A model generated the notes under the pieces. It was given only the letters and a program-made list of their open reading frames with translations, searched no databases and had not been told where the DNA came from. A stretch of DNA of 64,000 nt from Isoptericola halalbus. GTDB taxonomy: Bacteria; Actinomycetota; Actinomycetes; Actinomycetales; Cellulomonadaceae. A program made the position numbers and the translations under genes. Of this stretch, positions 24,449 to 53,117 are shown in pieces. The stretch is taken from contig VJZX01000010.1 in assembly GCA_009663185.1 (NCBI GenBank), positions 1-64,000 of the forward strand, given 5' to 3'. How positions within the stretch are numbered: the stretch's first letter is position 1; the number at the start of each line of letters is the position of its first letter.

Positions 24449-24455
24449 GACCATC

Positions 24456-35348: not shown

Positions 35349-36817
35349 CGGCGGTACGAGAACTCCTTGGTGACGCGCCGCGCGGCTCGGCCGAGCCGGC
35401 GCGCGAGCCGGTCGTCCTGAAGGACCCGAACGATGCGGTCGGCGACCGCGCCCACGTCCCCCATCGGGACGAGGAAGCCGTTCTCGCCGTCCCGCAGCAC
35501 CTCCGCGGGACCGTAGTTGCAGTCGTACGCGACGAAGGGCGTGCCGACCGACATCGCCTCGGTCAGCGTCAGCGGAAGGCCCTCGTGGAGCGAGGTCATG
35601 ACGGCGACCCGAGCCGAGGCGAACGCCTCCAGCGCGCGGTCCGTGCGGCCGAGGAACCGGACCGCGTGGGCGAGCTGCAGCTCGGACGCGAGCGCGGCGA
35701 GCTCGTCCCGCGAGGGACCGTCCCCGTAGACGTCCAGCCGCGCGTCGGGCACGCGCTGCAGCACGAGGGCGAACGCGCGCAGCAAATGGTCGAGCTGCTT
35801 CTGCGGCGCCAGCCTGCCGAGGGACACCACGCGGCGGGGATCACGCGTGACCCGTGGCGTGCGCGGCCGGGCGGCGGCGTGCCGCAGCACGTGGAGCGGG
35901 AGGCCGGGGTAGCGCTCGAGCAGGTCCCGGCGCTGCCGGTGGGTCAGGCAGACCATCGTGGTGACGTTGGTGACGTCCGAGAAGAAGCCCTCCCAGTGCG
36001 GCTTGGTCGGCGCGGTGACGTCATAGGGGGCGTCGAGGTGTGAGTTGTGCAGGACGGAGACCCCGCGCAGGCCGGGGTGCCGCATGAGTCGCAGCGTGCG
36101 CTGCCAGGCGTTCTCGCCGTCGGCGAACACGACCACGCGGCGGGAGTCGACGAGGTCCCGGTCGAGCCACGCCGCGATCGCCCCGGCGAAGTCCGTGTCG
36201 GGGTGGTCACCGGACGGGTACACCGCCGGCCCGAGCCCTCCGGTCCCGGACGGGTCGGCGGTGAGCCATCGAGCGCGGCCGTCGACGACGTAGTGCCGGA
36301 CCCACCGTCCGGGGGCGTCGATCTCGTCGACGGCGACGACGCCGCCGTCCACGAAGTGCCACACGGAGCTGCGGGTCCCGTCCTCGCGGTAGGTGACGAA
36401 GGACCGCGGCACGCCGGACTCCGGGTCGAGGACCTCCTGGGTCCTCAGCACGTCGGCGACGAACGTGCGCACGCGCACCCCCGCCTCGACGCTGCGCCGG
36501 CGCCGCGTGACGCCGTCCCCGTCGGGGACGCGCGGGGGCTGCATCGGTTCCTGCGCGGCGGCACGAGCACGGTCCTCGTCGCTCGGTCCGTCCCGCCACA
36601 GGTACGCCACCCTGACGTCCGGGTGCAGCAGGTCGTGCGACCGCGCCCAGCCCTCGTCGTTCTCGACACCGGTCACGACGAGCGTGACTCGACGACCGGC
36701 CGCGGCGTAGAGGGACGCCCGTGCGAGCACGGCACGCGTCCCACCGGCGACCTGCGGACCGAGCGACCGCACGAACAGGACGACGTCGTCGGGCTGCCCG
36801 CTCGTCGGACGGCCCAC
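35270..36817 (-). CDS. GT4 glycosyltransferase, TagE/TarM-like
   Basis: The 515-residue protein has a large N-terminal domain (about 25-260) with VVLFVRSLGPQVAGGTRAVL and a typical GT-B C-terminal domain: VVSLGRLAPQKQLDHLLRAF, DVYGDGPSRDELAAL, SLHEGLPLTLTEAMSVGTPFVAYDCNYGPAEVL. The NYGPAE variant and long N-terminus recall teichoic-acid alpha-glycosyltransferases of the TagE/TarM type. GTG 36817 starts 2 bases past the stop of the sulfotransferase gene, so they form an operon. The 3' end overlaps the convergent gene (35270-35348). A role in adding sugar side chains to a polymer is inferred. Confidence 0.8.
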   Translation of the reverse strand: MGRPTSGQPDDVVLFVRSLGPQVAGGTRAVLARASLYAAAGRRVTLVVTGVENDEGWARSHDLLHPDVRVAYLWRDGPSDEDRARAAAQEPMQPPRVPDGDGVTRRRRSVEAGVRVRTFVADVLRTQEVLDPESGVPRSFVTYREDGTRSSVWHFVDGGVVAVDEIDAPGRWVRHYVVDGRARWLTADPSGTGGLGPAVYPSGDHPDTDFAGAIAAWLDRDLVDSRRVVVFADGENAWQRTLRLMRHPGLRGVSVLHNSHLDAPYDVTAPTKPHWEGFFSDVTNVTTMVCLTHRQRRDLLERYPGLPLHVLRHAAARPRTPRVTRDPRRVVSLGRLAPQKQLDHLLRAFALVLQRVPDARLDVYGDGPSRDELAALASELQLAHAVRFLGRTDRALEAFASARVAVMTSLHEGLPLTLTEAMSVGTPFVAYDCNYGPAEVLRDGENGFLVPMGDVGAVADRIVRVLQDDRLARRLGRAARRVTKEFSYRRYRSSWLELLDDAARASSSSTISPRT

Positions 36818-36819
36818 GC

Positions 36820-37866
36820 TCAGCCGTCGACCGTGAACGAGTCGAGGTCGATGCCGTAGCTGTCCAGAACCTCCGCGGCGTGCTTGACGTCGGCGTCGTC
36901 GAAGAACTGCTTCCACTGGCCGATCGAGCCGTCGCGCGTGAAGTACCCGTCGAGCTTGACCACCATCGAGCGCCCCTGGCGCTCCTCCATGGCCCGGATG
37001 GTCGAGATGTCGGAGAGCGTGAGCGCCCGGTCGACCGCGTCGTCGACGAGGGGTAGCCCGAGGAACGTCACCACCTCGCGGAACCGCGCGGCAGGGTCTG
37101 CCTTCAGCGCCTCGTAGGACGAGACGAACACGGACGCGTCGTCGCGGTAGCTGTTCAGCGTGAGGTAGTGGCGCCCGTACTCGGAGAGCATCTTCTCGAT
37201 GACGTCGCGCGGGTGCTCGGCCTTGTCCCGGTTCTGCGGCCGCTGCTTGATCGTGTAGTGGAACAGCGAGATCACGAAGTCGAGCGGGTTGCGGTACAGC
37301 ATGATCTTCTTGCCCGGGCTGAAGACGAACGGGTCGTAGTCGTGCCGGAAGTGCTGCATCGTCACGTCGGAGATGCCGTGCTGCGCGAGGAGGTCCGTCG
37401 GCTCCCGGTACGGCTCCGCCTCACGGAACACCTGCCACCGGTTGTTGCCGTAGAACTGCTTGAGGAGCTGCGGGTAGGAGATCGCCTGGTCCACCCCCGG
37501 GTCGGTGAGGACGCGAGCGTAGTTGGTCAGGAAGAAGCGCATCCAGTGCGTGCCGGACTTCTGGATCGTCGCGACCGTCACGACGTCGTCGTGGTGCAGG
37601 CGGGAGAACGCCTCCGCGAACTCCTCTCCCCGCTCCGCGGCGAGGGTGCCGGTCCGCCACCGCGCGACGTCCCCCAGGTAGCGCAAGCCCTCGCCGGGTT
37701 CCGCGGGGATCGCGTCGAGGACCTCGGCGTACTCGCCCCGGCGGATGCCCGTCAGCGCGGCGGCGAGGCGTGACGCCCGCGTGCTCAGGCCGGCACGGGC
37801 GGTGAGGACATCCCAGTCGTGGGTGAGCAGGGCGTGCTCGAGCGGGGAGAGCGGGGCGTCGGTCAT
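36820..37866 (-). CDS. Sulfotransferase (Sulfotransfer_1 type)
   Basis: This 348-residue protein has the PAPS 5'-phosphosulfate loop TIQKSGTHWMRFFL (Lys103, Ser104, Thr106) and the 3'-phosphate motif IMLYRNPLDFVISLFHY (Arg192, Ser200), the two sites that define cytosolic-type sulfotransferases, then YEALKADPAARFREVVTFLG and a C-terminal KLDGYFTRDGSIGQWKQFF resembling the RKG-type end without its exact residues. It transfers sulfate from PAPS to a hydroxyl. ATG 37866 follows GGAAGGAA. It sits between the sialyltransferase-like gene and GT4, so its acceptor is probably the island's glycan. Confidence 0.9.
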   Translation of the reverse strand: MTDAPLSPLEHALLTHDWDVLTARAGLSTRASRLAAALTGIRRGEYAEVLDAIPAEPGEGLRYLGDVARWRTGTLAAERGEEFAEAFSRLHHDDVVTVATIQKSGTHWMRFFLTNYARVLTDPGVDQAISYPQLLKQFYGNNRWQVFREAEPYREPTDLLAQHGISDVTMQHFRHDYDPFVFSPGKKIMLYRNPLDFVISLFHYTIKQRPQNRDKAEHPRDVIEKMLSEYGRHYLTLNSYRDDASVFVSSYEALKADPAARFREVVTFLGLPLVDDAVDRALTLSDISTIRAMEERQGRSMVVKLDGYFTRDGSIGQWKQFFDDADVKHAAEVLDSYGIDLDSFTVDG

Positions 37867-37916
37867 ACGTCGGTTCCTTCCGGGCCTGGCTGCCGTGAAC
37901 ACAGGGCGACCTGTTT

Positions 37917-39824
37917 CTAGCGCTTCCGGTTGCGGTAGTACTGGGCGAAGATGCCGCTGCCGACGGCGGCCATCGCCACCGGGTCCTTGGCCCGCTCGAA
38001 CGTCTTGAGCGCGTCCCGCCGCCGCCCGATCGCCATGTAGGCGATCGCGAGCTGGCGCTGCTCGGTGGTCGAGAGCCGACGACTGCGGGACTCGGCCTCG
38101 AGGATGCGCGCGGCCGCCTCCGGCCGGCCCTCACGGACGTTCTCCTTCGCGCGCTTCAGAGCGTCGCCCGACCCGGCCGGGGCCGTCTCGGAGATGTCCG
38201 TACGGCGTCGAAGATCGCGGATGAGCTCGTTCTTCTCGAAGTCCTGGAGGTAGTCGAGCCACTCGAAGTCGAGGGCGTCGTACCGGTCGTCGCTGCTCGC
38301 GAGCTCCCACGGCTTCTTGCCGACGTAGTGCAGGACCTTGACGTCCTCGTCGTTGAACAGGGCCGGGTGGTGGGAGTAGATCCGCTTGGTGGTGTTGTAC
38401 TCGAGCGGAAGGGCTCGCCAGGAGTCGAAGAAGACGTTGAGGAATCCCTGGTCCCCCCCGTCGTACGACGGCGTGTGGGCGAGCTTGCGCATCATCGCCT
38501 CGAACGTCGGGTAGGACGGCGAGAAGGCGAACACGCCCGAGTTGAACACGTCGGGGTTCGGCAGGTCGAGGCCCGAGTCGGGCACGGCCGCGAAGTCGTC
38601 GCCCTCGAAGAGCTCGTCGATGTTCTGCTTGACGACGGCGTCGCTGTCGACGTAGACCAGGCGGTCGAGGAAGTCGAGCCGGAAGACGTGCAGCTTGGTG
38701 TAGGTGGCGGCGAACCGGGACTGGACCTTCTGCCCGGCGCCCCGGGCCAGGATCGGGTTGACGATCGGAGGCACGTCCAGCGTCACCACCCCGCTCGAGC
38801 GCAGGGCGAGCTTGTCGGCGTCAGGGGTGCACAACGCGATGAGGGGGACGTCCGTGACGCGGCGCAGCGAGTTCGCCAGGGCGCGAACACCGTGGTGGTA
38901 GGCGCCGGAGACGACGGTGACGTAGGCGCACTTGCGTCCGTCGATCTCCTTCCACAGCGGCTTGTCGACCTTCGGCACGACGAGCGACGCGGCGCCCCTG
39001 GCCGCGGGCAGCTCGATCTCCACCGTCTCCTTCGCCACGCCCACCGTCGAGCCCGGGCCGGGGGAGAGGTGGGGACGGTCGACGAGATCCTCGGCCTGCT
39101 TCACGTACAGGTGCAGCATCTCCGACTGGCTGACCGAGGTGATGGTCGCCTCCGGGTAGGCGGCGACGCAGGAGCGGAGGAACGCGACGTCGGTCTCGAG
39201 GCCGTGGTTGGCCTCGTACCCGGGTGCGAGGTCCTTCTTCTTCAGCCCGTCCTCGACGGCCTGCGGCACGGTGTACCCGTACCGGACGTCCTTCGACTCG
39301 TACAGGTCGACGCCCGAGAGGTAGATCTCCCGGAACCCGACACCGAGGCCGAACGCGAGCGCCTGCATCCCCGTGGTGGGCAGGCCCGGCCGGCTCATGA
39401 AGTGGCGGGCCAGGCGCGGGTTGAGCGCCGGGATGCTCCAGCTGTCGAGCTCCTCGACGTCGACGAGCGGGTCGAGCCCGTAACGGTCGCCGTCCCGGTT
39501 GGCGGCGTGCCGCATCGGCGACAGGATGCGGCGGACGTCGTAGCGGCCCGCACGGATCTCGTCGTGGAGCATCTTCTCGAGCGTCTCGTTCGGCACCGCC
39601 GAGAACCACGCGTCGACGCGATCGCCGAAGTGGTAGTTGCTCTCGAGGAAGAACCAGTTCATCCGGAAGACGACCACGTCCTCGGGGATCCGGTGATACG
39701 GCGGCATCGCCGAGGACGGCCCGTTCCCGACGATCAAGAGAGGGCGGTCGACCAGGTCTGCGAACGACGCGATCTCGGCGCCGCCCGGCTCGCGGCCGAG
39801 GGGGACACTCCGCATGGTGGGCAT
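37917..39824 (-). CDS. Three-domain protein: GT42 sialyltransferase-like, GT8 glycosyltransferase, TPR-like tail
   Basis: In this 635-residue protein, residues about 26-242 match bacterial GT42 alpha-sialyltransferases (CstI/CstII type): LLIVGNGPSS, FRMNWFFLESNYHFG, EIYLSGVDLYE. The catalytic set of CstII appears kept as Tyr175, Tyr182 and His207, with Arg145 as a candidate for the substrate Arg. Residues about 297-520 are a GT8 domain with the DxD at Asp393/Asp395 (YVDSDA) and VLHYVGKKPW. Residues 550-620 are TPR-like. CMP-nonulosonate would come from the NeuA gene 2.3 kb away. ATG 39824 follows AGGAG; MRSV at 39815 is an alternative. Confidence 0.8.
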   Translation of the reverse strand: MPTMRSVPLGREPGGAEIASFADLVDRPLLIVGNGPSSAMPPYHRIPEDVVVFRMNWFFLESNYHFGDRVDAWFSAVPNETLEKMLHDEIRAGRYDVRRILSPMRHAANRDGDRYGLDPLVDVEELDSWSIPALNPRLARHFMSRPGLPTTGMQALAFGLGVGFREIYLSGVDLYESKDVRYGYTVPQAVEDGLKKKDLAPGYEANHGLETDVAFLRSCVAAYPEATITSVSQSEMLHLYVKQAEDLVDRPHLSPGPGSTVGVAKETVEIELPAARGAASLVVPKVDKPLWKEIDGRKCAYVTVVSGAYHHGVRALANSLRRVTDVPLIALCTPDADKLALRSSGVVTLDVPPIVNPILARGAGQKVQSRFAATYTKLHVFRLDFLDRLVYVDSDAVVKQNIDELFEGDDFAAVPDSGLDLPNPDVFNSGVFAFSPSYPTFEAMMRKLAHTPSYDGGDQGFLNVFFDSWRALPLEYNTTKRIYSHHPALFNDEDVKVLHYVGKKPWELASSDDRYDALDFEWLDYLQDFEKNELIRDLRRRTDISETAPAGSGDALKRAKENVREGRPEAAARILEAESRSRRLSTTEQRQLAIAYMAIGRRRDALKTFERAKDPVAMAAVGSGIFAQYYRNRKR

Positions 39825-39860: not shown

Positions 39861-39866
39861 AGTCTA
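39861..39866 (-). promoter_or_regulatory. -10 element made from the upstream gene's stop codon
   Basis: The minus strand reads TAGACT; its TAG is the stop codon of the pyruvyl transferase-like gene 39864-42026. The start would be near 39854, about 30 bases before the ATG of the GT42/GT8 gene. Confidence 0.45.
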
Positions 39867-42026
39867 GTGGTCGAGAGTCGCGGCGATGTCGGCCGCGGCA
39901 GCGCGAACGGGCACGAGCAGCCCGTCCTGGAGCGTGTGGATGTCATCACGGTACCCCTGCTCACGGCCCAGGATGTCGGCCGTGAGCTCCGTGAGCCGGG
40001 CACCGAGGCGCTCGTCGTGCACGTCCACGCCCCACTCGACGCGGCCGATGTCCTCGAGGAAGTACCGCATCTTCGGGTGGGAGACGATGCTGAGCACGGG
40101 CGTCCCCAAACCGAACGGGATCATCGTGGCGTGACCGCGCATGCCGATGACCAGTGACGCCGAACGGTAGACGCCGTACGCCTCGTCGGGGCTCAGGTCG
40201 TGGAGCGCATCGACCGGGCGCTCGAGCCCGAAGTTCTCCTGCAGGTCGTTCGCCAGACGGAGGTCGCCACGGGTGTGCGCGACGAACCGGACCTCGGCGC
40301 CGGCCTTCTCGGCAGCCTCGACGAAGTCACGCATCTGCTCGAGGAACGCGGGGTACGTGTCGCCGAAGCGGCGGGCGCTGCGGTCGAACGCCGCGTTCAC
40401 GAGAACCCGGCCGGATCCGGGGCTCTTCTCCGGGAGGTCGTCGCGCAGGCGCTCGAGCACGGTCGTCGGGCACGGGATGTAACGGACCTTCTCGGCCAGC
40501 TCGGCGGGAAGCATGTCGGCCACGCGTGCCATCGAGCCGTGGTTGCGCAGCCCCAGGTACTCGGCCTTGCGCGCGAGAGCTTCGAGGCTGCGGGCGAACA
40601 GGCTGCCCTGGAACTCCTGGCCCGGGAACAGGTTGTAGCCCACGGAGTACACGAAGAGCGGGACGTCGATCGCCTCGAGCGACGCGCGTGGGACGTTCCA
40701 CTGCCAGCCGCTGTTGCCGTTGGGCGACGTGTCCGGGAGGAACAGGCCGCCGCCGCCGACGACGAGGGCGCGCTGCGTGTTCGCCGCACGCACGAAGGAG
40801 TCGTCGAACACCTGGTGGGCGTGGAACGGCAGCCACTCGCGCGGTCCCGCCGCTTCCTCGATCGCCGCCCGGACGGCGACCGGGAGCGCCACGTCGCCGA
40901 AGTTCTCCCCGGCGTCGACGAAGAACGCCACGTGACCGATGCCGCCCGCCGGAGCGTCCGCCGGTGTGAGGGGGTCGAGGCTGCGCTCGCGCACCCCTCG
41001 CACGGAGCGTGAGGGCATGCCCGCACGCGTCGCCTTCCGGGCCGCGTCGACGGCACCCTCGTAGTCGTGCACCACCCAGGCGATCTGTGCCTCGCGGGCG
41101 GCCGCCACGCCGGCCGTGGCCTCGGAACCGCCGAGGATGCGCAGAACCAGCCGGGCCTCCTCATACCGGCTCACCGCCGCCAGGGAGCGCGCCAGCTCGA
41201 GCAGGTAGCGCTCGATGAGCGCCTCCCGTCGCGCAGGGACCTTGTGCAGGGCCTCGAGAGCACCCTCGAAGTCGGCCTCGTCCGCCCGTGCGGTCGCCTC
41301 GTCGAGCACGGCGTTCAAGCCGGGCAGGTCGTCGTCCGTGGCTACTGCGAGGTAGCCCGCCGCGACGAGTGAGCTCACCACGTCGCGCAGCGCCGCGAGG
41401 TCGACGCGGGCGAGGTGGGGCAGGACGTAGTCCTCGGCCGCGCGCTCGAGCGCGCCCTCACGCGTGAACGGCGCCGACAGCGCATCCTCACGGGCTTGAG
41501 CGACGTCGAGAGAAGAGACGTGGTCGGCGATCGCCGCACGGAGCGCCAGGCGTTCGCGGACGTGCTCCAGACGGGGTCCGGCGTTGGCGCGACGCCAGGC
41601 GACGGACCCCTGCAGCGCGTGGTAGACGTGCTGCTCGGCCTCCTCCGGGCGACCGCAAAGCATTGCCGCGAGCCCCGCGAGTTCTCGCACCTCCCTGTCC
41701 TTGGGGAGTGCCTCCGCCAGAACTGCGGCCAGCGACGCCACCGGAGCGGCGTCCACGGCGTCGAGTCGGGTGCGAACGACCTCCACGGCGCCCTTGCGCA
41801 CCCCGGCAACGGTCGGCCACGGGCTGATGCCGGTCCAGACCCGGAACCACGACGGCGTGCCGGGCCTCGTCACGGCGAGCAGGGGGGCCGGAAGCCTCAC
41901 CGACCGGCCCGTACGGGACGCTGCCGCCAGGAAGCGCACGTTGCGCGCGCGGCGACGTACCGCGGCGGCGGCGATGCCCCGCGCCCGAGCGAGACGCGCC
42001 ACCAGGGCGCGCGTGGTTGTGTTCAC
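39864..42026 (-). CDS. Polysaccharide pyruvyl transferase family protein with helical N-terminal region
   Basis: In this 720-residue protein, the first 330 residues are helical and TPR-like (RYEEARLVLRILGG, EAQIAWVVHDYEGAVDAA). Residues about 355-690 are the pyruvyl transferase fold: FFVDAGENFGDVALPVAVR, ALVVGGGGLFLPDT, EYLGLRNHGSM, and LVIGMRGHATMIPFGLG with the family Arg/His. The segment SGWQW after GGGGLFL is shared with the protein at 21726, showing common ancestry. Pyruvylation of a glycan is the family role but has not been shown for this branch. The GTG start has a TAGGGT -10 at N7 (leaderless). It is divergent from neuA. Confidence 0.8.
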   Translation of the reverse strand: MNTTTRALVARLARARGIAAAAVRRRARNVRFLAAASRTGRSVRLPAPLLAVTRPGTPSWFRVWTGISPWPTVAGVRKGAVEVVRTRLDAVDAAPVASLAAVLAEALPKDREVRELAGLAAMLCGRPEEAEQHVYHALQGSVAWRRANAGPRLEHVRERLALRAAIADHVSSLDVAQAREDALSAPFTREGALERAAEDYVLPHLARVDLAALRDVVSSLVAAGYLAVATDDDLPGLNAVLDEATARADEADFEGALEALHKVPARREALIERYLLELARSLAAVSRYEEARLVLRILGGSEATAGVAAAREAQIAWVVHDYEGAVDAARKATRAGMPSRSVRGVRERSLDPLTPADAPAGGIGHVAFFVDAGENFGDVALPVAVRAAIEEAAGPREWLPFHAHQVFDDSFVRAANTQRALVVGGGGLFLPDTSPNGNSGWQWNVPRASLEAIDVPLFVYSVGYNLFPGQEFQGSLFARSLEALARKAEYLGLRNHGSMARVADMLPAELAEKVRYIPCPTTVLERLRDDLPEKSPGSGRVLVNAAFDRSARRFGDTYPAFLEQMRDFVEAAEKAGAEVRFVAHTRGDLRLANDLQENFGLERPVDALHDLSPDEAYGVYRSASLVIGMRGHATMIPFGLGTPVLSIVSHPKMRYFLEDIGRVEWGVDVHDERLGARLTELTADILGREQGYRDDIHTLQDGLLVPVRAAAADIAATLDH

Positions 42027-42101: not shown

Positions 42102-43361
42102 ATGTCCGTGTCCGCGACGCCCTCGGCGATCGTCATCATTCCCGCCCGCGGAGGCTCCCAGGGGGTACCGCTGAAGAACCTGCAGCGGGTCGATGGCGTC
42201 ACACTCGTCGGGCGTGCCGTCCAGTCGGCGCTCGCGGCACCCTCGGTCGAGCTCGTCGTGGTCTCGACCGACCACGACGAGATCGCGGCGGAGGCACGTG
42301 CCCACGGGGCACGCATCGTCGCGCGGCCGGCGGAGATCGCGGGTCACACCGCCTCGTCCGAGTCGGCGCTCCTCCACGTGCTCGACACCGTCGAGGCAGG
42401 TGACGACTCCGCCCCCGCACATGCCCTCCCGCCCGTGACGGTGCTGCTCCAGGCGACCTCGCCGTTCATCGATCCAGCCGACCTGGACACGGCCGTGCGA
42501 CGCGTCGCGAGCGGCGAGAGGGACGTCGTCATCGCCGTCGCGGAGACGCACGACTTCCAGTGGCGCCTGGACGGTGAAGAGGCCTCCCCGGTGGGGCACT
42601 CCACCGACTTCCGGCCGCGGCGGCAGGACCGCGCACCGCACTTCCGTGAGACGGGCGCCTTCTACGTGATGCGCACGGACGGGTTCCGTGAGCGTCAGGT
42701 GCGCTTCTTCGGCGAGATCGGACTGCAGCCCGTCGCGTCGGAGTGGTCGATCGAGATCGACGAGCCGCGGGACCTGTGGCTTGCCCGTGAGCTCGTCGCC
42801 CAGCCGGCCGACGTCGACCTCGGACGGCCCCACGACGCCGAGCTGCACGGCATCCAGGCGCTCGTCACCGACTTCGACGGCGTCCACACCGACGACCACG
42901 CGTACGTGAGCCAGGACGGCACCGAGCAGGTCCGCGTCAGTCGTGGCGACGGGATGGGGGTCGCGCTCCTGCGGCGGACCGGCGTCCCGATGCTGATCCT
43001 GTCGACGGAGACCAACCCCGTCGTCGCCGCCCGCGCGGCGAAGCTCAAGATGGACGTCCTGCACGGTGTCGACGACAAGGCCGGAGCGCTGCGGACCTGG
43101 ATCGAGGCCAACGGGCTGGACCCCGCTCACGTCGTCTACGTGGGCAACGACGTCAACGACCTGCCTGCGATGTCGCTCGTCGGCTGGCCTGTCGCCGTGG
43201 CCGACGCGCGGCCGGAGGTTCGCGAGGCGGCGCGCCTCGTGCTGTCCCGCCCGGGTGGGGACGGCGCCGTCCGGGAGATCTGCGACCGTATACTCGCAGC
43301 GCACCAGAGCGCTGTCGCCGCCGCCGGCACCGCCGTGTCGGCCACCGCCGGCAGGGCCTAG
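42102..43361 (+). CDS. neuA: CMP-nonulosonate (N-acylneuraminate) cytidylyltransferase fused to KdsC-like HAD phosphatase
   Basis: In this 419-residue protein, residues about 8-245 form a cytidylyltransferase that charges a nonulosonic acid with CMP: VIIPARGGSQGVPLKNL (CTP loop), VVSTDHDEIA, TVLLQATSPF, FRETGAFYVMR. Residues about 252-405 are a HAD domain like KdsC: TDFDGVHTDD with nucleophile Asp257 and Asp259, a Lys in GVDDKAG, and GNDVNDLPAM as the metal motif. The animal CMP-sialate synthetase has the same order, but its HAD domain has lost the first Asp; here all motifs look intact, so dephosphorylation of a nonulosonate-9-phosphate is possible. ATG follows GAGGTAG. Confidence 0.88.
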   Translation: MSVSATPSAIVIIPARGGSQGVPLKNLQRVDGVTLVGRAVQSALAAPSVELVVVSTDHDEIAAEARAHGARIVARPAEIAGHTASSESALLHVLDTVEAGDDSAPAHALPPVTVLLQATSPFIDPADLDTAVRRVASGERDVVIAVAETHDFQWRLDGEEASPVGHSTDFRPRRQDRAPHFRETGAFYVMRTDGFRERQVRFFGEIGLQPVASEWSIEIDEPRDLWLARELVAQPADVDLGRPHDAELHGIQALVTDFDGVHTDDHAYVSQDGTEQVRVSRGDGMGVALLRRTGVPMLILSTETNPVVAARAAKLKMDVLHGVDDKAGALRTWIEANGLDPAHVVYVGNDVNDLPAMSLVGWPVAVADARPEVREAARLVLSRPGGDGAVREICDRILAAHQSAVAAAGTAVSATAGRA

Positions 43362-43364
43362 ACT
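43359..43364 (+). promoter_or_regulatory. Candidate -10 element overlapping the neuA stop codon
   Basis: TAGACT includes the neuA TAG stop (43359-43361). The start would be near 43371, about 47 bases before neuB. The same stop-plus-ACT arrangement occurs at 39866-39861. Confidence 0.4.
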
Positions 43365-43417
43365 CCGGCGAACGTTCCGCACCACCGCGTGCACGACCCC
43401 TTCGGAAGGACCTCATC

Positions 43418-44311
43418 ATGAGCGCGACCACCGCGCAGCCCGCGCCGGTCAGCATCGGCGAGCACCTGGTCGGGCCCGACCAGCCCGTCTACGTGATCGG
43501 CGAGATCGGCATCAACCACAACGGTGACGTCGAGATCGCGAAGAAGCTCATCGACGTCGCGGTCGAGGCCGGCGCGCAGGCGGTCAAGTTCCAGAAGCGG
43601 ACCCCGGAGATCAGCACTCCGAAGGACCAGCGGGACAAGATCCGTCAGACGCCGTGGGGCGAGATGACGTACCTCGAGTACAAGTACAAGGTCGAGTTCG
43701 AGGACGCCGAGTACGCGGAGGTCGACGAGTACGCCAAGGCGAAGGGCGTCCAGTGGTTCGCCTCGCCGTGGGACGTCCCGTCGGTCGAGTTCCTCGAGAA
43801 GTTCGACGTCCCGACCCACAAGGTCGCCTCGGCGTCGGTCACCGACGTCGAGCTGCTCCGTGCCCTCGCGGACACGGGCAAGCCGATCATCCTCTCGACC
43901 GGCATGTCGACGCTCGAGCAGATCGACGCCGCCGTCGAGATCCTCGGCACGGACAAGCTCGTCATGCTGCACGCCACCTCGACCTACCCCCTCCCGCCGG
44001 AGGAGGCGAACCTCCGGACGATCGACACGCTCAAGCAGCGCTACGGTGTGCCGGTCGGGTACTCGGGTCACGAGACAGGCCTGCAGATCTCGCTCGCCGC
44101 GGTCGCGCTCGGCGCGGTCGCCGTCGAGCGTCACATCACGCTCGACCGGGCCATGTGGGGCTCCGACCACGCGTCGTCGCTCGAGCCGAAGGGCCTGGAG
44201 AACCTGGTCCGCGACATCCGCATCCTCGAGAAGGCCCTGGGCGACGGCGAGAAGCGCGTCATGCCGGGCGAGTTCTCGCCGATGTCGCGCCTGCGCCGCA
44301 TCGACGGCTGA
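43418..44311 (+). CDS. neuB: Nonulosonic acid synthase (NeuB family) lacking the SAF domain
   Basis: NeuB enzymes condense PEP with an aldose (ManNAc, its 6-phosphate, or relatives) to make nine-carbon acids. This 297-residue protein covers only the TIM barrel: VIGEIGINHNGDVEIAKKLI, AVKFQKRTPEISTPKDQ, WFASPWDVPSVEFLEKF, KVASASVTDVELL, ILSTGMSTLEQI, LPVGYSGHETG-like block and ERHITLD. It stops at MSRLRRIDG, whereas typical NeuB proteins of about 340-350 residues add a C-terminal SAF (antifreeze-like) domain that reaches the active site. The following 66 bases are a terminator, so the domain is absent, not frameshifted. ATG follows GGAAGG. Confidence 0.9.
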   Translation: MSATTAQPAPVSIGEHLVGPDQPVYVIGEIGINHNGDVEIAKKLIDVAVEAGAQAVKFQKRTPEISTPKDQRDKIRQTPWGEMTYLEYKYKVEFEDAEYAEVDEYAKAKGVQWFASPWDVPSVEFLEKFDVPTHKVASASVTDVELLRALADTGKPIILSTGMSTLEQIDAAVEILGTDKLVMLHATSTYPLPPEEANLRTIDTLKQRYGVPVGYSGHETGLQISLAAVALGAVAVERHITLDRAMWGSDHASSLEPKGLENLVRDIRILEKALGDGEKRVMPGEFSPMSRLRRIDG

Positions 44312-44377: not shown

Positions 44378-45442
44378 GTGCCGGTGAACGCCGGGGGGCA
44401 GCCGCCCGTGGGAACGGATCTGCCTCAGCAGGTCGCCGTCGTCGCGACCGTTCGCGACGAGGAGCCGTACCTCGAGGCCGCGGTGCGGTCGATCCTGCAG
44501 CAGGACTATCCGGGCCACGTGTCGCTCGTCGTCGCCGTCGGGCCCTCGCACGACCGCACGCGGGAGATCGCCGACCGGCTCGCGGCCGAGGACACGCGGG
44601 TCCGGGTGATCGACAACCCGAGCGGTTCGAGGTCGGACGGCCTGAACAGCGCGATCGCTCAGGCGGGAGCCGACGGCAACGACATCGTCGTGCGGATCGA
44701 CGGACACACCGTCTTCGAGCCGTCGTACGTGCGTCGTGCGGTGCAGATCATGCTCGAGGCCGGAGCGGACGGGGCGGGCGGGATCATGACGCCGGTCGGC
44801 GACCAGCCGATCCAGGAGGCGGTCGCCCGTGCGATGAGCCACCCTGCCGGCCTCGGCTCCGCCTCGTTCCACGTGGGCGGACGGCCCGGACCGGCGGACA
44901 CCGTCTACCTCGGCGCGTTCCGCCGGGACGCCATCGTCAAGGCCGGTGGGTTCGACCCGGACATCATCCGTGGCGAGGACTGGGAGCTGTGCCTGCGCAT
45001 GCGGCGCGCCGGCTCGGTGCTGTGGTTCGACCCGTCGCTCCGCGTCGCGTACCGCCCCAGACGCACGCTGGCCGCCGTGGCGAAGCAGTTCTGGCGTACG
45101 GGGATGTGGCGACGTGAGATCGTGCGCAGGAACCCCGACACGGCGAGCGTGCGCTATCTCGCACCGCCCGGCGTGGTGCTCGCGCTGTCGCTCAGCCTGG
45201 CTTCCGTGATCGTCGGGGCGGTCTTCGGCACGGGCTGGCTCGCGGTGCTCGGCGTCGTCGGGATCGGCGGCTACGTGGTCGGCGAGCTCGCCGCGGCGGG
45301 GCACGCGGCCACCCGCTCGCCCCGGCTGCCGTGGCGCGCCGCGCTGGTCCTCCCGGCGGTCCTCGTCACGATGCACGTCTGCTGGGGAGCCGGATTCGTC
45401 CGGGGAGTCTCGCGGCGGGCGTCGCGCGACCACCGCGCCTGA
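44378..45442 (+). CDS. GT2 glycosyltransferase with C-terminal membrane helices (ExoA-like)
   Basis: The 354-residue protein has a GT2 catalytic domain (about 18-245), with VVATVRDEEPYLEAAVRSIL, VIDNPSGSRSDGLNSAI, IVVRIDGHTVFEPSYV (acidic DxD-like motif RIDGH) and IRGEDWELCLRMRRAGS (the ED catalytic-base motif). Three hydrophobic segments follow (about 262-340). The plan is that of succinoglycan-type ExoA transferases acting on a lipid-linked glycan at the inner membrane face. The GTG follows GGAAGGAGA. It is separated from neuB by a terminator and converges with the DUF6716-like gene across 7 bases. Confidence 0.85.
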   Translation: MPVNAGGQPPVGTDLPQQVAVVATVRDEEPYLEAAVRSILQQDYPGHVSLVVAVGPSHDRTREIADRLAAEDTRVRVIDNPSGSRSDGLNSAIAQAGADGNDIVVRIDGHTVFEPSYVRRAVQIMLEAGADGAGGIMTPVGDQPIQEAVARAMSHPAGLGSASFHVGGRPGPADTVYLGAFRRDAIVKAGGFDPDIIRGEDWELCLRMRRAGSVLWFDPSLRVAYRPRRTLAAVAKQFWRTGMWRREIVRRNPDTASVRYLAPPGVVLALSLSLASVIVGAVFGTGWLAVLGVVGIGGYVVGELAAAGHAATRSPRLPWRAALVLPAVLVTMHVCWGAGFVRGVSRRASRDHRA

Positions 45443-45449: not shown

Positions 45450-46655
45450 TCAGCCGACCGGGCGCACGGGGCGGACCGGGCGCACGAGGCGTCGGGCGAT
45501 CGTGCCCGGGACGAGGGATCGCGCCACGGTCCGCAGGTACCCCACGCGGGACAGCGGCTCCACGCCACCGAGGTCGCGCACCGTCTGGTCTCGCGACTGC
45601 TCCGCGAGCTCCCGGAGCGCCTCCGGCAGCTCCGAGCGCGACGTGTGGAGGTAGTTCTCCCGGAGCCATTCCGGCTCCGGGTCCGGACCGCCGGCACGGA
45701 GGAGCTCGGGCAGGTCGGCCAGCGAACCGACGCAGCCGCTGCCCGCGAACGGGGCGTTGAGGAGCTCCTCGGTCACCCCGAAGTCGTCCAGCACGACCGT
45801 CGGCAGCCCGAGGGCGAGCGACTCGAGGGCGGCCGACGAGCTCACTGTCACGAGGGCCGTGCCCGGCTCGAGCCACTCCGCCATCGGGCCGTCGACGAAG
45901 CGCACGGCCTGCTGGTCGTGGCCCAGCCGTGCGTGCTCGGCCTCCCACAGCGCGTCGAGGGGGAACGCCTCGTTGTGGGTCTGCCGCTCACCGGCCCGCG
46001 CGCGGAGCTTGACGACGACGTCGAGCCCGGTTGCCGCGGTCCGCGCCAGGCCGTCGAGCAGGGCGACGCGCTCCGAGCGCTCGGGCGGCACGAGCGCCTG
46101 CGCCGCGAACAGGATCCGCTCGACCGGCTGCCGGACGCGGTGCGCCGCGTCCGCCAGGAAAGGGAGCCGGGCGAGCACGAGCCGGGGGTTCACCCCGTGC
46201 CTCGCGAAGCCGTCCCGATACGCCTGGGCCTCGCGAAGGCTGTGCACCACGAACGCGTCGGTCCAGCGTCTGTACCCGGTCCCGAGCTCGGTGGCGGGCA
46301 GCGCCATGCCGGGGAGGCCGGACAAGAGCGCCGGCCGGCGGCGGCCAGAAGCGGTGACGACGTCCCGAGCGACCATCTCCGCGACCGGCCCTGTCGCGGC
46401 GATCACGACGACGTCCGGCCGCACCTCGTGCAGGAGCCGGCGCAGCTCTCTGCGGCTCACCAGCGCGGGACGGACGATCGCGGTGCCCACCACGGCCGCG
46501 GCGATCTGGGACTCCGACGGCGCGATCGGCGTACGGATCACGACAGCGGTCCGCTCGAACTCCGCGTCGAGCCCGCTCCTGAGCGAGTCGAGCGTCGCGC
46601 AGGCCCACTTCAGGTACGAGTCGCTGTCTGCGATCGCCAGGATCCGGATCGTCAT
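45450..46655 (-). CDS. DUF6716-like putative glycosyltransferase
   Basis: This 401-residue protein begins MTIRILAIADSDSYLKWA, typical of DUF6716 putative glycosyltransferases. It has GT-B features: ILFAAQALVPPERSERVALLDGL at the start of the second domain, and ALVTVSSSAALESLALGLPTVVLDDFGV, like the donor site of CDP-glycerol/polysialyltransferase-type enzymes. The gene overlaps the upstream gene by 4 bases (ATGA) and thus works with it. The family tends to travel with CMP-nonulosonate genes, as I recall it, so a nonulosonate or polymer elongation function is possible, not shown. Confidence 0.65.
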   Translation of the reverse strand: MTIRILAIADSDSYLKWACATLDSLRSGLDAEFERTAVVIRTPIAPSESQIAAAVVGTAIVRPALVSRRELRRLLHEVRPDVVVIAATGPVAEMVARDVVTASGRRRPALLSGLPGMALPATELGTGYRRWTDAFVVHSLREAQAYRDGFARHGVNPRLVLARLPFLADAAHRVRQPVERILFAAQALVPPERSERVALLDGLARTAATGLDVVVKLRARAGERQTHNEAFPLDALWEAEHARLGHDQQAVRFVDGPMAEWLEPGTALVTVSSSAALESLALGLPTVVLDDFGVTEELLNAPFAGSGCVGSLADLPELLRAGGPDPEPEWLRENYLHTSRSELPEALRELAEQSRDQTVRDLGGVEPLSRVGYLRTVARSLVPGTIARRLVRPVRPVRPVG

Positions 46656-47725
46656 CGGGGCCCTTCCGTGTCGTCCATGGGGCCCGTGCGCGCCGACGGG
46701 CCTTGTGCTGCGTCGCGAGCCTGCGAGGCGAGGTCGAGCACGCTCGACAGGTGCGCGCGCAGCGATCGGGACGCCGCGGGCGTCCACCACGAGTCGGGGA
46801 CCTCGCGAGGGACGACCGGCACGTCGCGCGCCGCGAGGATCGTCGTCAGCAGGACCGCGGAGGTGGACGGGAGGCTCACGACGCGCTGCCCGGCCCGCAG
46901 GCCCCGTAGCCGGACCTCGACCGGTGCGCCCGCGGCGTCCACGGCCACGCCTGGGGTCGCAGCCAGGGCGTCGAGGACGTCCGCGGACGACCGCCTGTGG
47001 GGCAGGTAGCGCACCGGGGTCTGGCGCGCGAGCGCCTGGATCCACTCGACGTAGGGCTGTGACCGTACGAGGCCGTCGGACACCATAGCGGAGCCGACGA
47101 CGATCGTCGGCTCCGTGGGCGCGGCGCCTGCGGGGCGAGACGCGAGCCAGGGAAACCTGTTGTCCATGATGCGTACACCGGCGGAGCTCAGCTCGGCGCG
47201 CAGGGGTCCGCCCAGCGGGAGCGCGGTGAAGAGCACGACGCCGCCGCGGCCGGCGAGCCGCCGCAGACGGCGGGTCGCGGCCGCCCCGAGAGCCCGGCGC
47301 GCCGCGCCTGCCGGCTGCCCCACGCGCGTGAGCGGTGAGCCGGCGACGAGGAGGCGTGCGAGCTCGATCGTGGCCAGGCCGTCGTCGACCAGGACGATCT
47401 TGCGCGGGCCATGGGCCAGCAGGCGGGTCTGGAACACGCCCGAGAACGCGTCGCCGACGATCCACGCCGGCGCGCGGGGTGCCAGGGCGGCCAGCGGCCC
47501 GACGTGGTCGAGGCGCAGTCCTTCGGGCAGGCCGAACGACTCGATCGCGGCGGAGGCCTCGCCCAGGGACGGGACGTCGTCGCGCACCTGCGCCACGGTC
47601 CGGGGTGCCACGACACCGTCCGCGTGGGCCTCGACGGTGCACAGGAGCTGCAGCGGAGACTCCACGAGCGCGTGCGCGCGACCCGGGTCCGCTGCCGCGG
47701 GGGGCGTGGTGTCCGCGACTGTCAC
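46652..47725 (-). CDS. Putative GT52/polysialyltransferase-like glycosyltransferase
   Basis: The 357-residue protein starts near HALVESPLQLLCTVEAHADG, a first strand like that of the GT52/polysialyltransferase superfamily. It then has KIVLVDDGLATIELARLL (the D-D-G motif common in this group), TIVVGSAMVSDGLV, and RYLPHRRSSADVLDAL, which recalls the H-R/H-P acidic-sugar transferase motifs of polysialyltransferases. The assignment is by motif likeness and is tentative. Next to CMP-nonulosonate genes, it could add a second nonulosonic residue or polymerise it. GTG 47725 is the most likely start; its promoter is not clear. Confidence 0.55.
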   Translation of the reverse strand: MTVADTTPPAAADPGRAHALVESPLQLLCTVEAHADGVVAPRTVAQVRDDVPSLGEASAAIESFGLPEGLRLDHVGPLAALAPRAPAWIVGDAFSGVFQTRLLAHGPRKIVLVDDGLATIELARLLVAGSPLTRVGQPAGAARRALGAAATRRLRRLAGRGGVVLFTALPLGGPLRAELSSAGVRIMDNRFPWLASRPAGAAPTEPTIVVGSAMVSDGLVRSQPYVEWIQALARQTPVRYLPHRRSSADVLDALAATPGVAVDAAGAPVEVRLRGLRAGQRVVSLPSTSAVLLTTILAARDVPVVPREVPDSWWTPAASRSLRAHLSSVLDLASQARDAAQGPSARTGPMDDTEGPR

Positions 47726-47830
47726 GCGGCGCAGTCTCTCACGGCGGGCGGCGGGGGCGAGCTCCGAGAATCCCTGGTGAACCTCCACACGACGGGCGCG
47801 GAGCTGGCTCTGCGCGCTGCGGCGTCCTTG

Positions 47831-47892: not shown

Positions 47893-48891
47893 GTGACCAC
47901 GGACACCAGCATCGGCTCGGCGGCGACGCCGCACGAGCCGGCCGGGCCCAAGGGTGCGCCGCCTCGGCCCCCGGCCCCGATCACGCCCTCGCTCAGCTCG
48001 GCCGAGCTGCGAGCCCTCGCGACGGAGAACGGGCTCACCCAGATGGGTGTCCGGCCGCCGTTCTGGGCCTACATCCGGGATGTGTACCGGCGCCGGGCGT
48101 TCATCCGCGTCCTGGCGGCTTCCAACGCCTACGCCAAGAACCAGAACAACTATCTGGGCCAGCTCTGGGCGGTGCTCAACCCGATCCTGAACGCGACGGT
48201 CTACGTCCTGGTCTTCGGCATCCTCCTTCAGACGACGCGCGGGCTCGAGAACGCGATCGCGTTCATCGTGATCGGGACCTTCATGTTCCGGTTCGTCGAC
48301 CAGTCCGTGAACGGGGGTGCCAAGTCGATCTCGGGCAAGGCGAGCCTCATCCGTTCGATGCACTTCCCCCGAGCGGTCCTACCCGTGTCCACGGTCCTGT
48401 CGCTGCTCGCGACGCTCGTCCCGTCGATCGTCGTCATGTGCGGGATCGTCCTTCTCAGCGGCCTGCTCGAGAATTACATGATGATGCAGGTGACCTGGCA
48501 CTGGCTGCTGCTGCCCGGTGCTGTGGCCCTGCTGTGGGTCTTCAACACGGGCCTGGCGTTCGTCATGGCGCGCGTCGTGGCGATCACGCCCGACCTGGAC
48601 AACATCATCGGCTTCATCATGCGGTTCGCCATGTACGGCTCGGGCGTGATCTTCCCGGTCACGCACTACGCCGAGCGGCTGCCGGCGGACGTCGCGGCCG
48701 TCGTCGGCCCGATCCTGACCTACCAGCCGATCGCCGTGTACCTCTACCTGGTGCGCTCGAGCATCACCCAGGAGCCCGAGATCCCGCCGGACCCGTGGAT
48801 GTGGGTCTGGGGCGCGTCGTGGGCGGTGGTGACCTTCGTCGTCGGCTTCGTCGTCTTCTGGCGCGGGGAGGAGAGGTACGGCCGTGACTGA
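47893..48891 (+). CDS. wzm: ABC-2 type polysaccharide exporter permease (Wzm/TagG type)
   Basis: This 332-residue membrane subunit of a polysaccharide ABC exporter has a Pro/Ala-rich cytosolic N-terminus (about 1-45) preceding six hydrophobic segments. Recognisable parts are AKNQNNYLGQLWAVLNPILNATVYVLVFGI (first interface helix; matches the YK...LG.LW.vlnPl motif), and LIRSMHFPRAVLPVSTVLS, the coupling region. With Wzt it would move a lipid-linked glycan to the outer face. GTG 47893 has GGAG about 12 bases before; it overlaps wzt by 8 bases. Confidence 0.88.
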   Translation: MTTDTSIGSAATPHEPAGPKGAPPRPPAPITPSLSSAELRALATENGLTQMGVRPPFWAYIRDVYRRRAFIRVLAASNAYAKNQNNYLGQLWAVLNPILNATVYVLVFGILLQTTRGLENAIAFIVIGTFMFRFVDQSVNGGAKSISGKASLIRSMHFPRAVLPVSTVLSLLATLVPSIVVMCGIVLLSGLLENYMMMQVTWHWLLLPGAVALLWVFNTGLAFVMARVVAITPDLDNIIGFIMRFAMYGSGVIFPVTHYAERLPADVAAVVGPILTYQPIAVYLYLVRSSITQEPEIPPDPWMWVWGASWAVVTFVVGFVVFWRGEERYGRD

Positions 48892-49903
48892 GTCCGACCT
48901 GCACATGGACGTCGACCTCGACGTCGAGTTCGATCCGGAGGACCTCGAGTCAAGGCCCCCGGTCGGCGAGATCGGCGCGCCGGTCCTCGTCGTGGACGAC
49001 CTGCACGTGGTGTACCGCGTCATCGGGAGCAAGGGCCGGCAGCAGGCGCACGGCAGCGGCGCGCGGACGCGCGAGGTCAAGGCCGACCGGCCGTCGTTCG
49101 TCCGGCGTCTCATCGGCGCGGGCAGCCAGCACGTTGGTGCGTTCACGGAGGTGCACGCGGTCCGAGGGATCTCGTTCGCCGCGTACCACGGCGAGTCGAT
49201 CGGCATCGTCGGCGTGAACGGGTCGGGCAAGAGCACCCTCCTGCGTGCGGTCGCCGGGCTGATCCCGCCGCACTCGGGGGCCGTGTTCGTCGACGGCGAA
49301 CCCTCCCTGCTCGGCGTCAACGCGGCGCTCATGCCGCAGCTCTCCGGGGAACGCAACATCATGATCGGCGGCCTCGCGCTCGGTCTGACGACCAAGCAGG
49401 TGGACGAGAAGTTCGACGAGATCGTCGACTTCGCGGACATCGGCGACTTCGTCTACCTTCCGATGCGCACCTACTCCTCGGGGATGGCCGCCCGTCTGCG
49501 GTTCGCCATCTCGTCGGCCGCCTCGCCCGACATCCTCATGATCGACGAGGCTCTCGCCACGGGCGACGCCGCCTTCAAGTCGCGCAGCAAGGCCCGGATC
49601 GAGGAGGTGCGGGAGGACGCGGGGACGATCTTCCTCGTCAGCCACTCGATCTCCACGATCGAGGCGATGTGCACCCGCGTCCTGTGGGTGCACCAGGGCA
49701 GGCTCGTCATGGACGGGCCGACGCACGAGGTCGCCGAGGCCTACAAGGAGTTCGTCCGCGCGCACCGCGCCTCGGACGGCCCGAAGCGGCTAGGTCCCAA
49801 GGCCCGGGCGCGCAAGGCGGCACAGGAGGCGCGTGCTGCCGAGCAGGCCCAGGCCGCTCAGCAGGCCGAGGCGGGGACGGACTCGGCCGGCCTCGCCGGC
49901 TGA
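48884..49903 (+). CDS. wzt: ABC exporter ATPase for polysaccharide (Wzt/TagH type)
   Basis: This 339-residue nucleotide-binding subunit has an acidic N-terminal tail (about 1-30), Walker A GVNGSGKST, the polysaccharide-type signature YSSGMAARLRF in place of LSGGQ, Walker B ILMIDEALATGD and the switch His in LVSHS. The C-terminal 50 residues are an Ala/Gln/Glu-rich coiled coil. It lacks a carbohydrate-binding domain, so it is of the TagH/Wzt type that relies on a universal rather than a chain-end signal. The strong GGGGAGGAGAGG lies before the GTG at 48884. Confidence 0.93.
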   Translation: MTESDLHMDVDLDVEFDPEDLESRPPVGEIGAPVLVVDDLHVVYRVIGSKGRQQAHGSGARTREVKADRPSFVRRLIGAGSQHVGAFTEVHAVRGISFAAYHGESIGIVGVNGSGKSTLLRAVAGLIPPHSGAVFVDGEPSLLGVNAALMPQLSGERNIMIGGLALGLTTKQVDEKFDEIVDFADIGDFVYLPMRTYSSGMAARLRFAISSAASPDILMIDEALATGDAAFKSRSKARIEEVREDAGTIFLVSHSISTIEAMCTRVLWVHQGRLVMDGPTHEVAEAYKEFVRAHRASDGPKRLGPKARARKAAQEARAAEQAQAAQQAEAGTDSAGLAG

Positions 49904-52244: not shown

Positions 52245-53117
52245 ATGCCCGAGCCGACCTTGTCGTACCCCGACGCGTCGTTGAGCGACCACGACCTCGC
52301 CGTCGCGCTCGTCTTCGGCGCCGGCCGCGTCCTGAACGACCTGCGTGCCGAGATCGACACGGCGGGTGGCGGCTTCGCCGCCAAGGAGCTCAAGGACGCC
52401 GGGGACGCCGCGAGCCAGGCCTGGCTGGCGGGCGCGCTCGCGCATGCCCGCCCCGACGACGCGGTCCTCTCCGAGGAGGCCAAGGACGGACCCGCGCGTA
52501 CCGACGCCGACCGCGTCTGGATCATCGACCCGCTCGACGGCACCCGGGAGTTCGCCGAGCGGCACGACGACGGCACGTGGCGCGACGACTTCGCCGTCCA
52601 CGTGGCGCTGTGGGACCGGTCCGCGGGAGCCGCGACCGCGGGTTTGGACACGGGCGCGGTGGGCCTGCCTGCGCGGGGTAAGGTGCTCTCCACGGTTCCC
52701 ACGGTCCCGTCCGGCGCGGACCACGACGTGACGGCCGTCCTCGAGGGGCGTCGTCCGTTGCGGATCGCAGCCAGCCGGAGCCGCCCGCCGGAGTTCGTGA
52801 CCGCGCTCGCCGCGCGGGGCGACGTCGAGCTGGTCCCCATGGGGTCGGCCGGCGTCAAGGTCGTCTCGGTCGTCGACGGAACGGTCGACGCCTATGTGCA
52901 CGGGGGAGGTCAGTACGAGTGGGACTCGGCGGCGCCCGTGGCCGTCGCCCTCGGGGCGCGCCTGACGTGCACGCGCCTGGACGGCTCGCCCCTCGAGTAC
53001 AACCGCCAGGACCCCTGGCTCCCCGATCTGTTCGTGTGCCACCCGGCCCTCGGCCCGCACCTGCGTGCGGCGCTGACGGCGGTCGGGGTTGACAGCAAGG
53101 AAGGTGCCCAGTCGTGA
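52245..53117 (+). CDS. cysQ: 3'(2'),5'-bisphosphate nucleotidase (PAP phosphatase)
   Basis: Hydrolyses 3'-phosphoadenosine 5'-phosphate (PAP), the by-product of sulfotransferases, to AMP. The 290-residue inositol-monophosphatase fold shows DDAVLSEEAKDG (metal Glu), VWIIDPLDGTREF (the Asp-Pro-Leu-Asp-Gly-Thr metal motif) and YEWDSAAPVAVALGA near the C-terminus. It overlaps cysD (GTGA), tying PAP removal directly to PAPS production, as expected where sulfation is heavy. ATG 52245 follows GAGGAG. Confidence 0.92.
   Translation: MPEPTLSYPDASLSDHDLAVALVFGAGRVLNDLRAEIDTAGGGFAAKELKDAGDAASQAWLAGALAHARPDDAVLSEEAKDGPARTDADRVWIIDPLDGTREFAERHDDGTWRDDFAVHVALWDRSAGAATAGLDTGAVGLPARGKVLSTVPTVPSGADHDVTAVLEGRRPLRIAASRSRPPEFVTALAARGDVELVPMGSAGVKVVSVVDGTVDAYVHGGGQYEWDSAAPVAVALGARLTCTRLDGSPLEYNRQDPWLPDLFVCHPALGPHLRAALTAVGVDSKEGAQS

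Follow-up and report, generated by a model that had tools for sequence, protein, structure and literature searches.

A predicted Kdn-9-phosphate pathway in Isoptericola halalbus with a NeuA-phosphatase fusion and a NeuB lacking the SAF domain

Why should a bacterial cytidylyltransferase carry an apparently intact phosphatase domain, and which sugar acid would such a protein activate? The question is raised by two adjoining genes of Isoptericola halalbus (Cellulomonadaceae) within a 64,000-nucleotide stretch of DNA, here called the window (GenBank assembly GCA_009663185.1, contig VJZX01000010.1, positions 1 to 64,000 of the forward strand). The first open reading frame (ORF; 42102-43361, + strand, 419 aa, ATG start) encodes NeuA fused to a phosphatase of the HAD type, and the second (43418-44311, + strand, 297 aa, ATG start), separated from it by 56 nt, encodes a short nonulosonate synthase, NeuB. 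Judged from their sequences, the two genes most likely encode the nonulosonate steps of a pathway, with phosphatase and cytidylyltransferase joined in one protein, and there is good reason to think that this pathway makes ketodeoxynononic acid (Kdn) by way of Kdn-9-phosphate (Kdn-9-P). An earlier note on this DNA had proposed that mannose-6-phosphate (Man-6-P) and phosphoenolpyruvate (PEP) would give Kdn-9-P, which a single fused protein would dephosphorylate and activate. The proposal is supported at the sequence level by searches of the source genome in which neither NeuC nor NanE was found, by marker residues of the phosphatase, by motifs in NeuB and by reports of Kdn in lineages with such genes. 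The chemistry of Kdn-9-P, the class of Kdn polymers and the presence of fused NeuA-HAD entries in plasmid records are known already; the variant part is the fusion of NeuA to a seemingly intact Kdn-type phosphatase, together with a synthase predicted to lack the SAF domain. Literature searches, covering open-licence papers only, brought up no paper recognised as describing a fused Kdn-9-P phosphatase/CMP-Kdn synthetase.

The NeuA half (residues 1-233; 42102-42800, + strand), a predicted CMP-Kdn synthetase domain, matches Pfam CTP_transf_3 (PF02348) at 74 bits against a cut-off of 22.6, has sequence matches to 1eyr and 1qwj, and is the sole PF02348 match in the source genome. The HAD half, of the KdsC/C0 type (42846-43316, + strand), spans approximately residues 250-400, with 3mmz as the nearest PDB sequence (E 1e-53). 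Its catalytic set (two Asp, a Ser/Thr, a Lys and an Asp pair) is all there as D257, D259, S301, K326, D350 and D353, the Asp pair lying in a GNDVND motif at residues 348-353. These domain matches and residues bear out the earlier description of NeuA fused to a KdsC-like HAD with its catalytic residues in place, and the NeuB downstream of it is indeed short, with a PF03102 match (284 bits against a cut-off of 22), no SAF match at E 0.01 and an end one residue past the match to a profile of NeuB relatives. The source genome carries a single NeuB.

Three further residues of the phosphatase half bear on its substrate. E303, R311 and K314 align with Glu56, Arg64 and Lys67 of chain 3e81, which we take to be BT1713, the Kdn-9-P phosphatase of Bacteroides. 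Glu56 and Lys67 reportedly set the Kdn-9-P phosphatase apart from KdsC, and three KdsC-type chains aligned alongside 3e81, namely 4um5 (named KdsC), 3mn1 (YrbI-type) and 3n1u (HAD IIIA), have neither the marker Glu nor the marker Lys. In these positions the window HAD matches the Kdn-9-P phosphatase and not the three KdsC-type chains. The six catalytic and three marker residues are also conserved among relatives. A HAD is present in 19 of 20 regions from a sample of the phylum and keeps all nine residues in 18 of those 19; the same nine are kept in 20/20 regions from the window's own family and in 4/4 plasmid loci. They are likewise kept, with Thr instead of Ser301, in 80/80 scan loci, which were found using 3e81 as the query, are the best 80 of 142 and belong mostly to Bacteroidota.

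The synthase was compared across the phylum sample, comprising 396 genomes, of which 51 carry NeuB at 60 places; the regions of all 60 were examined. A NeuB was called short if its C-terminal tail had fewer than 40 residues, and a HAD was counted if it lay no more than 5 kb away. By this measure a HAD accompanies 21 of 27 short NeuBs and just one of the 33 long (p 7e-10), and NeuC lies near none of the 27 short and 7 of the 33 long. Leaving out five rows gives 19/22 vs 1/33; these were three cut or partial entries (L122, L124, L125), L115, whose tail has 34 residues, and L046, whose HAD is dead. The NeuC model cut-off is passed in 7 of the 51 NeuB genomes and in none of the 21 that bear a HAD.

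HAD-linked NeuBs share two motifs, a K60-R61 pair straight after the barrel Gln and T84-Y85...K/R89...E93, the latter with K89 in the window. Both occur in 94/103 HAD-linked rows vs 3/36 others; within the phylum sample the counts are 20/21 and 3/34. Rows were excluded if they scored below 80 bits or matched over fewer than 240 residues, and the window was placed by hand in the HAD-linked group. The nine HAD-linked exceptions comprise five with R or V at K60, three second, distant NeuB-like ORFs and one from Azospirillum (L129). Neither motif occurs in the seven NeuC-linked rows besides L129, and two short NeuBs of f13 (L096, L122) have the KR pair and lack the second motif. The association holds among clusters at 70% identity (22/27 HAD-linked vs 2/31 others) and at 60% (7/9 vs 2/28). 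Set against Neisseria NeuB in an alignment, the first motif comes after Gln55 and the second after Asn74, residues that PMC6795526 counts among those near the ligand; the motifs may lie at a position suited to holding a C6 phosphate.

A tree of 75 NeuB rows, built on their first 300 residues and including 15 of 79 Bacteroidota-type rows, groups the HAD-linked NeuBs, the presumed Bacteroides Kdn-9-P synthase type included, to one side of a fork with support of 89/62. Five HAD-less rows fall on the same side (two from G352, one from G171 and two from f13). Motifs and tree position together place the window NeuB as a predicted Kdn-9-P synthase. The position of human NANS Met42 was tried as a further marker and was uninformative: the window NeuB has V there, most short NeuBs have V or A, and 6/7 NeuC-linked ones have A. 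As a separate observation, two NeuB ORFs (L116 and L117, from G322 and G341) have approximately 340 extra C-terminal residues; for the Kdn/Neu5Ac capsule of Serratia marcescens, a NeuB is described that bears an isomerase-like domain in addition (PMC9000132).

Which acceptor sugar would be available to this synthase? The source genome, which has 4.1 Mb in 110 contigs and is estimated to be 100% complete, was searched for enzymes that supply N-acetylmannosamine (ManNAc). The Epimerase_2 family (PF02350) holds NeuC and includes the MnaA/WecB and LegG types. No NeuC was found among the scanned window ORFs, as stated in the earlier note, and at E 0.01 Epimerase_2 matches nothing in the source genome, while 11 of 14 control genomes match; a search for a NeuC elsewhere in the genome, which the note had held would count against its proposal, was therefore empty for NeuC/MnaA-type genes. 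A suggested search for pseB likewise gave nothing above the cut-off (best 27.8 vs 408). Two candidates were set aside: a NanE match on contig C89 is TrpC, which scores 265 bits as indole-3-glycerol phosphate synthase vs 28 as NanE and stands beside a TrpB-like ORF, and a protein of the AGE family is unlikely to be an N-acetylglucosamine 2-epimerase, its best match being D-mannose isomerase (348 bits, short of the cut-off of 600). No supply route for ManNAc or ManNAc-6-phosphate (ManNAc-6-P) was found in the source genome. The manA gene that the note had invoked as the source of Man-6-P is present (23140-24378, - strand; TIGR00218, 220 bits vs a cut-off of 116), and it adjoins manB (24447-25886, + strand), 17.7 kb from the NeuA/NeuB pair; it is weak support for the pathway and was dropped as evidence.

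Taken in order, NeuB would convert Man-6-P and PEP into Kdn-9-P, the HAD half of the fusion would remove the 9-phosphate to give Kdn, and the NeuA half would activate Kdn to CMP-Kdn. This order of steps is proposed because the pathways of Bacteroides thetaiotaomicron and Prymnesium parvum run so (PMC6200933). Transferases of the CST-I-like/GT8, polysialyltransferase-like, GT2 and GT4 kinds would then assemble a wall polymer of the teichulosonic acid type, predicted to bear pyruvate on Kdn and perhaps sulfate on a hexose. We infer the substrates, the step order, the polymer structure and any channelling between the domains. A wider reading, which combines a bifunctional fusion leading from Kdn-9-P to CMP-Kdn, a SAF-less 9-phosphate synthase, two motifs that mark phosphate-using synthases across bacteria and a pyruvylated, sulfated Kdn wall polymer, stands only slightly better than an even chance of being right in all its parts.

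Several results weigh against a Kdn-9-P pathway at this locus, or narrow what can be claimed for it. The HAD half reaches 94.6 bits against the equivalog NF058599 (Kdn-9-P phosphatase; cut-off 180) and 88.8 and 105.9 bits against the KdsC models TIGR01670 (cut-off 107) and PRK09484 (cut-off 208); because these curated cut-offs are missed, it is not filed under any of the three, and its function is only likened, by its predicted residues, to the BT1713 type. The motif association shrinks among clusters at 50% identity (5/7 vs 2/23, p 0.003), so the link between markers and HAD is partly shared ancestry, and the fork that unites the two NeuB groups has moderate support only. Five of the 21 HAD-bearing genomes match the NeuC model below its cut-off; the absence of an epimerase relative hence belongs to the source genome and not to the group. 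At locus L130 the synthase beside a phosphatase 99% identical to BT1713 has a SAF domain (43 bits), an architecture that differs from that of the window NeuB. We presume this synthase to be the counterpart of BT1714. By eye, with no alignment, the Arg-Pro-Gly motif of the SAF domain is without its Arg in the L130 synthase. Since this synthase has a SAF domain, a Kdn synthase is not defined by loss of that domain; shortness of NeuB is ruled out as a Kdn marker, and the short NeuB, which the earlier note had taken as a pointer to the Kdn-9-P route, is not diagnostic of it. At L129, on an Azospirillum thermophilum plasmid, a short NeuB and a NeuA-HAD stand beside NeuC and legionaminic-type genes, and the legionaminic-type set has a separate cytidylyltransferase of its own. 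Two genomes with NeuBs similar to that of the window manage without an active fused HAD. In G214 (L046; NeuA-HAD at approximately 9419-10588, - strand) Ala takes the place of the nucleophile Asp, and the Glu and Lys markers have been lost with it, while NeuB is 75% identical to the window NeuB; in G352, an 8.6-Mb genome with two NeuA-NeuB loci (L052 and L108) and the same short NeuB type, NeuA has no HAD and none lies nearby. With the HAD by itself as query, the two genomes returned weak further matches only (best 30 and 23 bits). The earlier note's argument, that a working phosphatase would be pointless unless the pathway ran through a 9-phosphate, is silent on these two genomes. Lastly, a sulfotransferase of the window type lies near NeuA-HAD in 1 of 20 family regions only.

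The conserved features must also be set against other routes. The phosphatase and the NeuB motifs would suit any 9-phosphate, and NeuB has TIGR03569 (NeuB_NnaB) as its best NCBIfam match (276.5 bits, under the cut-off of 399.65), as might be expected if NeuB acted on ManNAc-6-P, the HAD released N-acetylneuraminic acid (Neu5Ac) and NeuA made CMP-Neu5Ac, as in animals. Such an animal-like route is very unlikely here, given that neither Epimerase_2 nor NanE was found as a source of ManNAc-6-P, that the AGE protein best matches D-mannose isomerase, and that a NeuB with no SAF domain has no counterpart of Arg314, a ManNAc contact of the Neisseria enzyme according to the text available (PMC6795526); related wall polymers, moreover, are described as containing Kdn (PMC11481543, PMC6801904). 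Equally, the HAD might be a structural leftover, with another phosphatase or none serving the pathway: the vertebrate C-domain is reported to be without phosphatase activity in vitro (PMC8636478), the fused HAD of G214 has lost its nucleophile Asp, its Glu and its Lys, and NeuA of G352 has no HAD. Nine identical residues in the window and 20/20 family relatives are not what would be expected of a leftover, whose decay G214 itself displays, and little weight can be given to this alternative.

A di-N-acetylated nonulosonate of the pseudaminic or legionaminic type, or some other sugar acid, is suggested by matches of PseI (TIGR03586) to NeuB at 229 bits and of PseF to NeuA at 89 bits. Both fall under their cut-offs (340 and 206), and neither a PseB over its cut-off nor an Epimerase_2 protein, the family of the legionaminic enzyme, was found in the genome. 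Pseudaminic and legionaminic pathways use unphosphorylated sugars, which would leave the HAD unexplained, and the idea is exceedingly improbable. The same holds, at a similarly minimal chance, for Kdn made directly from mannose, with the HAD acting on a different sugar phosphate. The genome encodes a protein resembling D-mannose isomerase, and free mannose might therefore be present; the nearness of a HAD to most short NeuBs, whose motifs match those of NeuBs beside BT1713-type phosphatases, speaks against such a route, as does the Kdn-9-P synthase of P. parvum, which is reported to use Man-6-P but to leave ManNAc-6-P, mannose and ManNAc unused (PMC6200933). Kdn-9-P made from Man-6-P is the reading carried forward below.

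Published wall chemistry points to Kdn as the likely sugar acid. A Gal-Kdn teichulosonic acid is described from Streptomyces walls, with S. coelicolor named (PMC11481543, PMC7831098), and the Streptomyces teichulosonic acid cluster is given as SCO4873-SCO4882 (PMC13011467); an earlier paper places neuAB in SCO4873-81, under PhoP control, and terms the product teichuronic acid (PMC2267785). For Promicromonospora citrea 665T a polymer ->6)-Glc-(1->6)-Glc3SO3-(1->4)-7,9Pyr-Kdn-(2-> is reported, along with a second pyruvylated polymer (PMC6801904), and the pyruvyl transferase and sulfotransferase genes of the window fit the former, whose pyruvate ketal on Kdn and glucose sulfate each have a candidate gene. 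The P. citrea structure was obtained by chemistry on another organism, and the text available on it gives no gene cluster. In nine regions of one genus (f6 g9; genomes of 6-10 Mb, Streptomyces by inference) DUF6716, NeuA, a short NeuB and a polysialyltransferase-like gene stand together, NeuA being fused to HAD in 8/9. These regions share their core gene set with the window, to which a pyruvyl transferase, a sulfotransferase and a CST-I/GT8 fusion are added.

Among pathways described so far, that of B. thetaiotaomicron (BT1714 synthase, BT1713 phosphatase) is alike in its predicted chemistry, in the Glu/Arg/Lys and catalytic residues of the phosphatase and in the NeuB motifs seen at L130. It differs in that L130 encodes phosphatase and synthase as separate proteins, the latter with a SAF domain, in contrast to the phosphatase-cytidylyltransferase fusion and SAF-less synthase of the window. 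P. parvum follows the same course from Man-6-P and PEP through Kdn-9-P and Kdn to CMP-Kdn; the available text of that study reports no phosphatase gene found and a CMP-Kdn synthetase with a C-terminal membrane stretch instead of a HAD (PMC6200933). The vertebrate CMAS/CSS proteins share the order of NeuA domain and HAD-type C-domain, but mouse CSS and its C-domain are reported to have no phosphatase activity in vitro (PMC8636478), whereas the window HAD has a complete active site. In a bacterium, the dead HAD of G214 may parallel the vertebrate C-domain in its inactivity; a PDB search with this HAD matched the mouse domain 3ewi. If the proposed pathway is true, the fusion would be a bifunctional phosphatase-cytidylyltransferase whose vertebrate counterpart lacks one activity, and annotators of genomes could use the NeuB motifs as sequence markers to distinguish ordinary NeuBs from 9-phosphate synthases. 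Kdn polymers are known chemically from actinobacterial walls, their first-step genes going simply by the name neuAB in the text available (PMC2267785), and genes would be assigned to a pyruvylated and sulfated Kdn polymer so far known from chemistry (PMC6801904).

In a sample of 150 Cellulomonadaceae genomes, 48 have NeuA-HAD. Twenty of the 48 regions, each of approximately 20 kb apart from two shorter ones, were examined, and NeuA-HAD and NeuB occur together in all 20. The pyruvyl transferase lies near NeuA-HAD in 6/20 and the CST-I/GT8 gene in 3/20. The Kdn core is stable across the family and the decoration genes vary, with the sulfate link as the weakest part. The nearest homologs of the window NeuA-HAD (75-78% identity) are mostly in another genus, with genomes of 5-6.8 Mb, and those of its own genus are at 65-75%, a pattern suggestive of transfer inside the family. 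In plasmid records, several fusions of NeuA and HAD go under the name acylneuraminate cytidylyltransferase. NeuA-HAD is carried by the megaplasmids of two Sinorhizobium fredii records, of strains other than SVQ293, the strain in which Kdn is reported (PMC7845648). On pSymB of Sinorhizobium meliloti (L127, CP140934.1) the order is NeuB, NeuA-HAD, DUF6716 and an alpha-2,3-sialyltransferase; this NeuB is also SAF-less, and the first 300 residues of the sialyltransferase are 33% identical to the CST-I-like part of the window protein. On plasmid p4 of Tritonibacter mobilis (L128), NeuA-HAD is accompanied by an epimerase of the AGE family and by a hypothetical protein of 273 aa, and the only NeuB found in that region is annotated as a pseudaminic acid synthase.

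NeuA and NeuB of the window stand among glycosyltransferase genes, as in teichulosonic acid clusters. On the + strand, 66 nt past NeuB, a GT2 glycosyltransferase (44378-45442) has relatives nearby in many family regions. It is followed on the - strand by a DUF6716 putative glycosyltransferase (45450-46655; PF20471, 389 bits), found near the pair in 16/20 phylum and 19/20 family regions, and by a GT-B protein (46652-47788) that has no Pfam match and occurs in 20/20 family regions. Its AlphaFold model (pLDDT 87) resembles a bacterial polysialyltransferase, the top Foldseek match being 5wcn (E 4.6e-7, TM approximately 0.46), with many other GT-B enzymes scoring about equally. An ABC permease (47893-48891, + strand; ABC2_membrane, 20.8 bits, under the cut-off) and ATPase (48884-49903, + strand; ABC_tran, 71 bits) form a probable glycan exporter, one or both genes of which occur in 11/20 family regions.

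Upstream of the pair and on the - strand, the pyruvyl transferase (39864-42026; PF04230, 73 bits), predicted to act on Kdn, is divergent from NeuA at a distance of 75 nt. Next to it is the CST-I-like and GT8 fusion (37917-39824; PF06002, 36 bits vs a cut-off of 25, and PF01501, 57 bits), a predicted Kdn transferase and hexosyltransferase with relatives at L246, L251, L253 and L048, its first domain occurring also in S. meliloti. Beyond these are the sulfotransferase (36820-37866; PF00685, 74 bits on the ORF 36820-37902), with a 70% relative near L253, and a GT4 glycosyltransferase (35270-36817; PF00534, 137 bits on the ORF 35270-36916). Sulfate activation is represented by an adenylylsulfate kinase domain protein for supply of 3'-phosphoadenosine-5'-phosphosulfate (49916-51166, - strand; apsK, 196 bits, cut-off 138.7) and, on the + strand between 52245 and 55333, by a CysQ-like protein (52245-53117; 83 bits, below the cut-off of 229), CysD (53114-54016) and CysN (54020-55333), the last two above their cut-offs; any cell may also use these genes in sulfur assimilation. 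A second polysaccharide pyruvyl transferase is encoded at 21726-23132 (+ strand; PF04230, 49 bits), and a 242-aa ORF with no Pfam match at 29577-30305 (+ strand), sulfotransferase-like by eye, has relatives of 53-59% identity near NeuA-HAD in 5/20 family regions.

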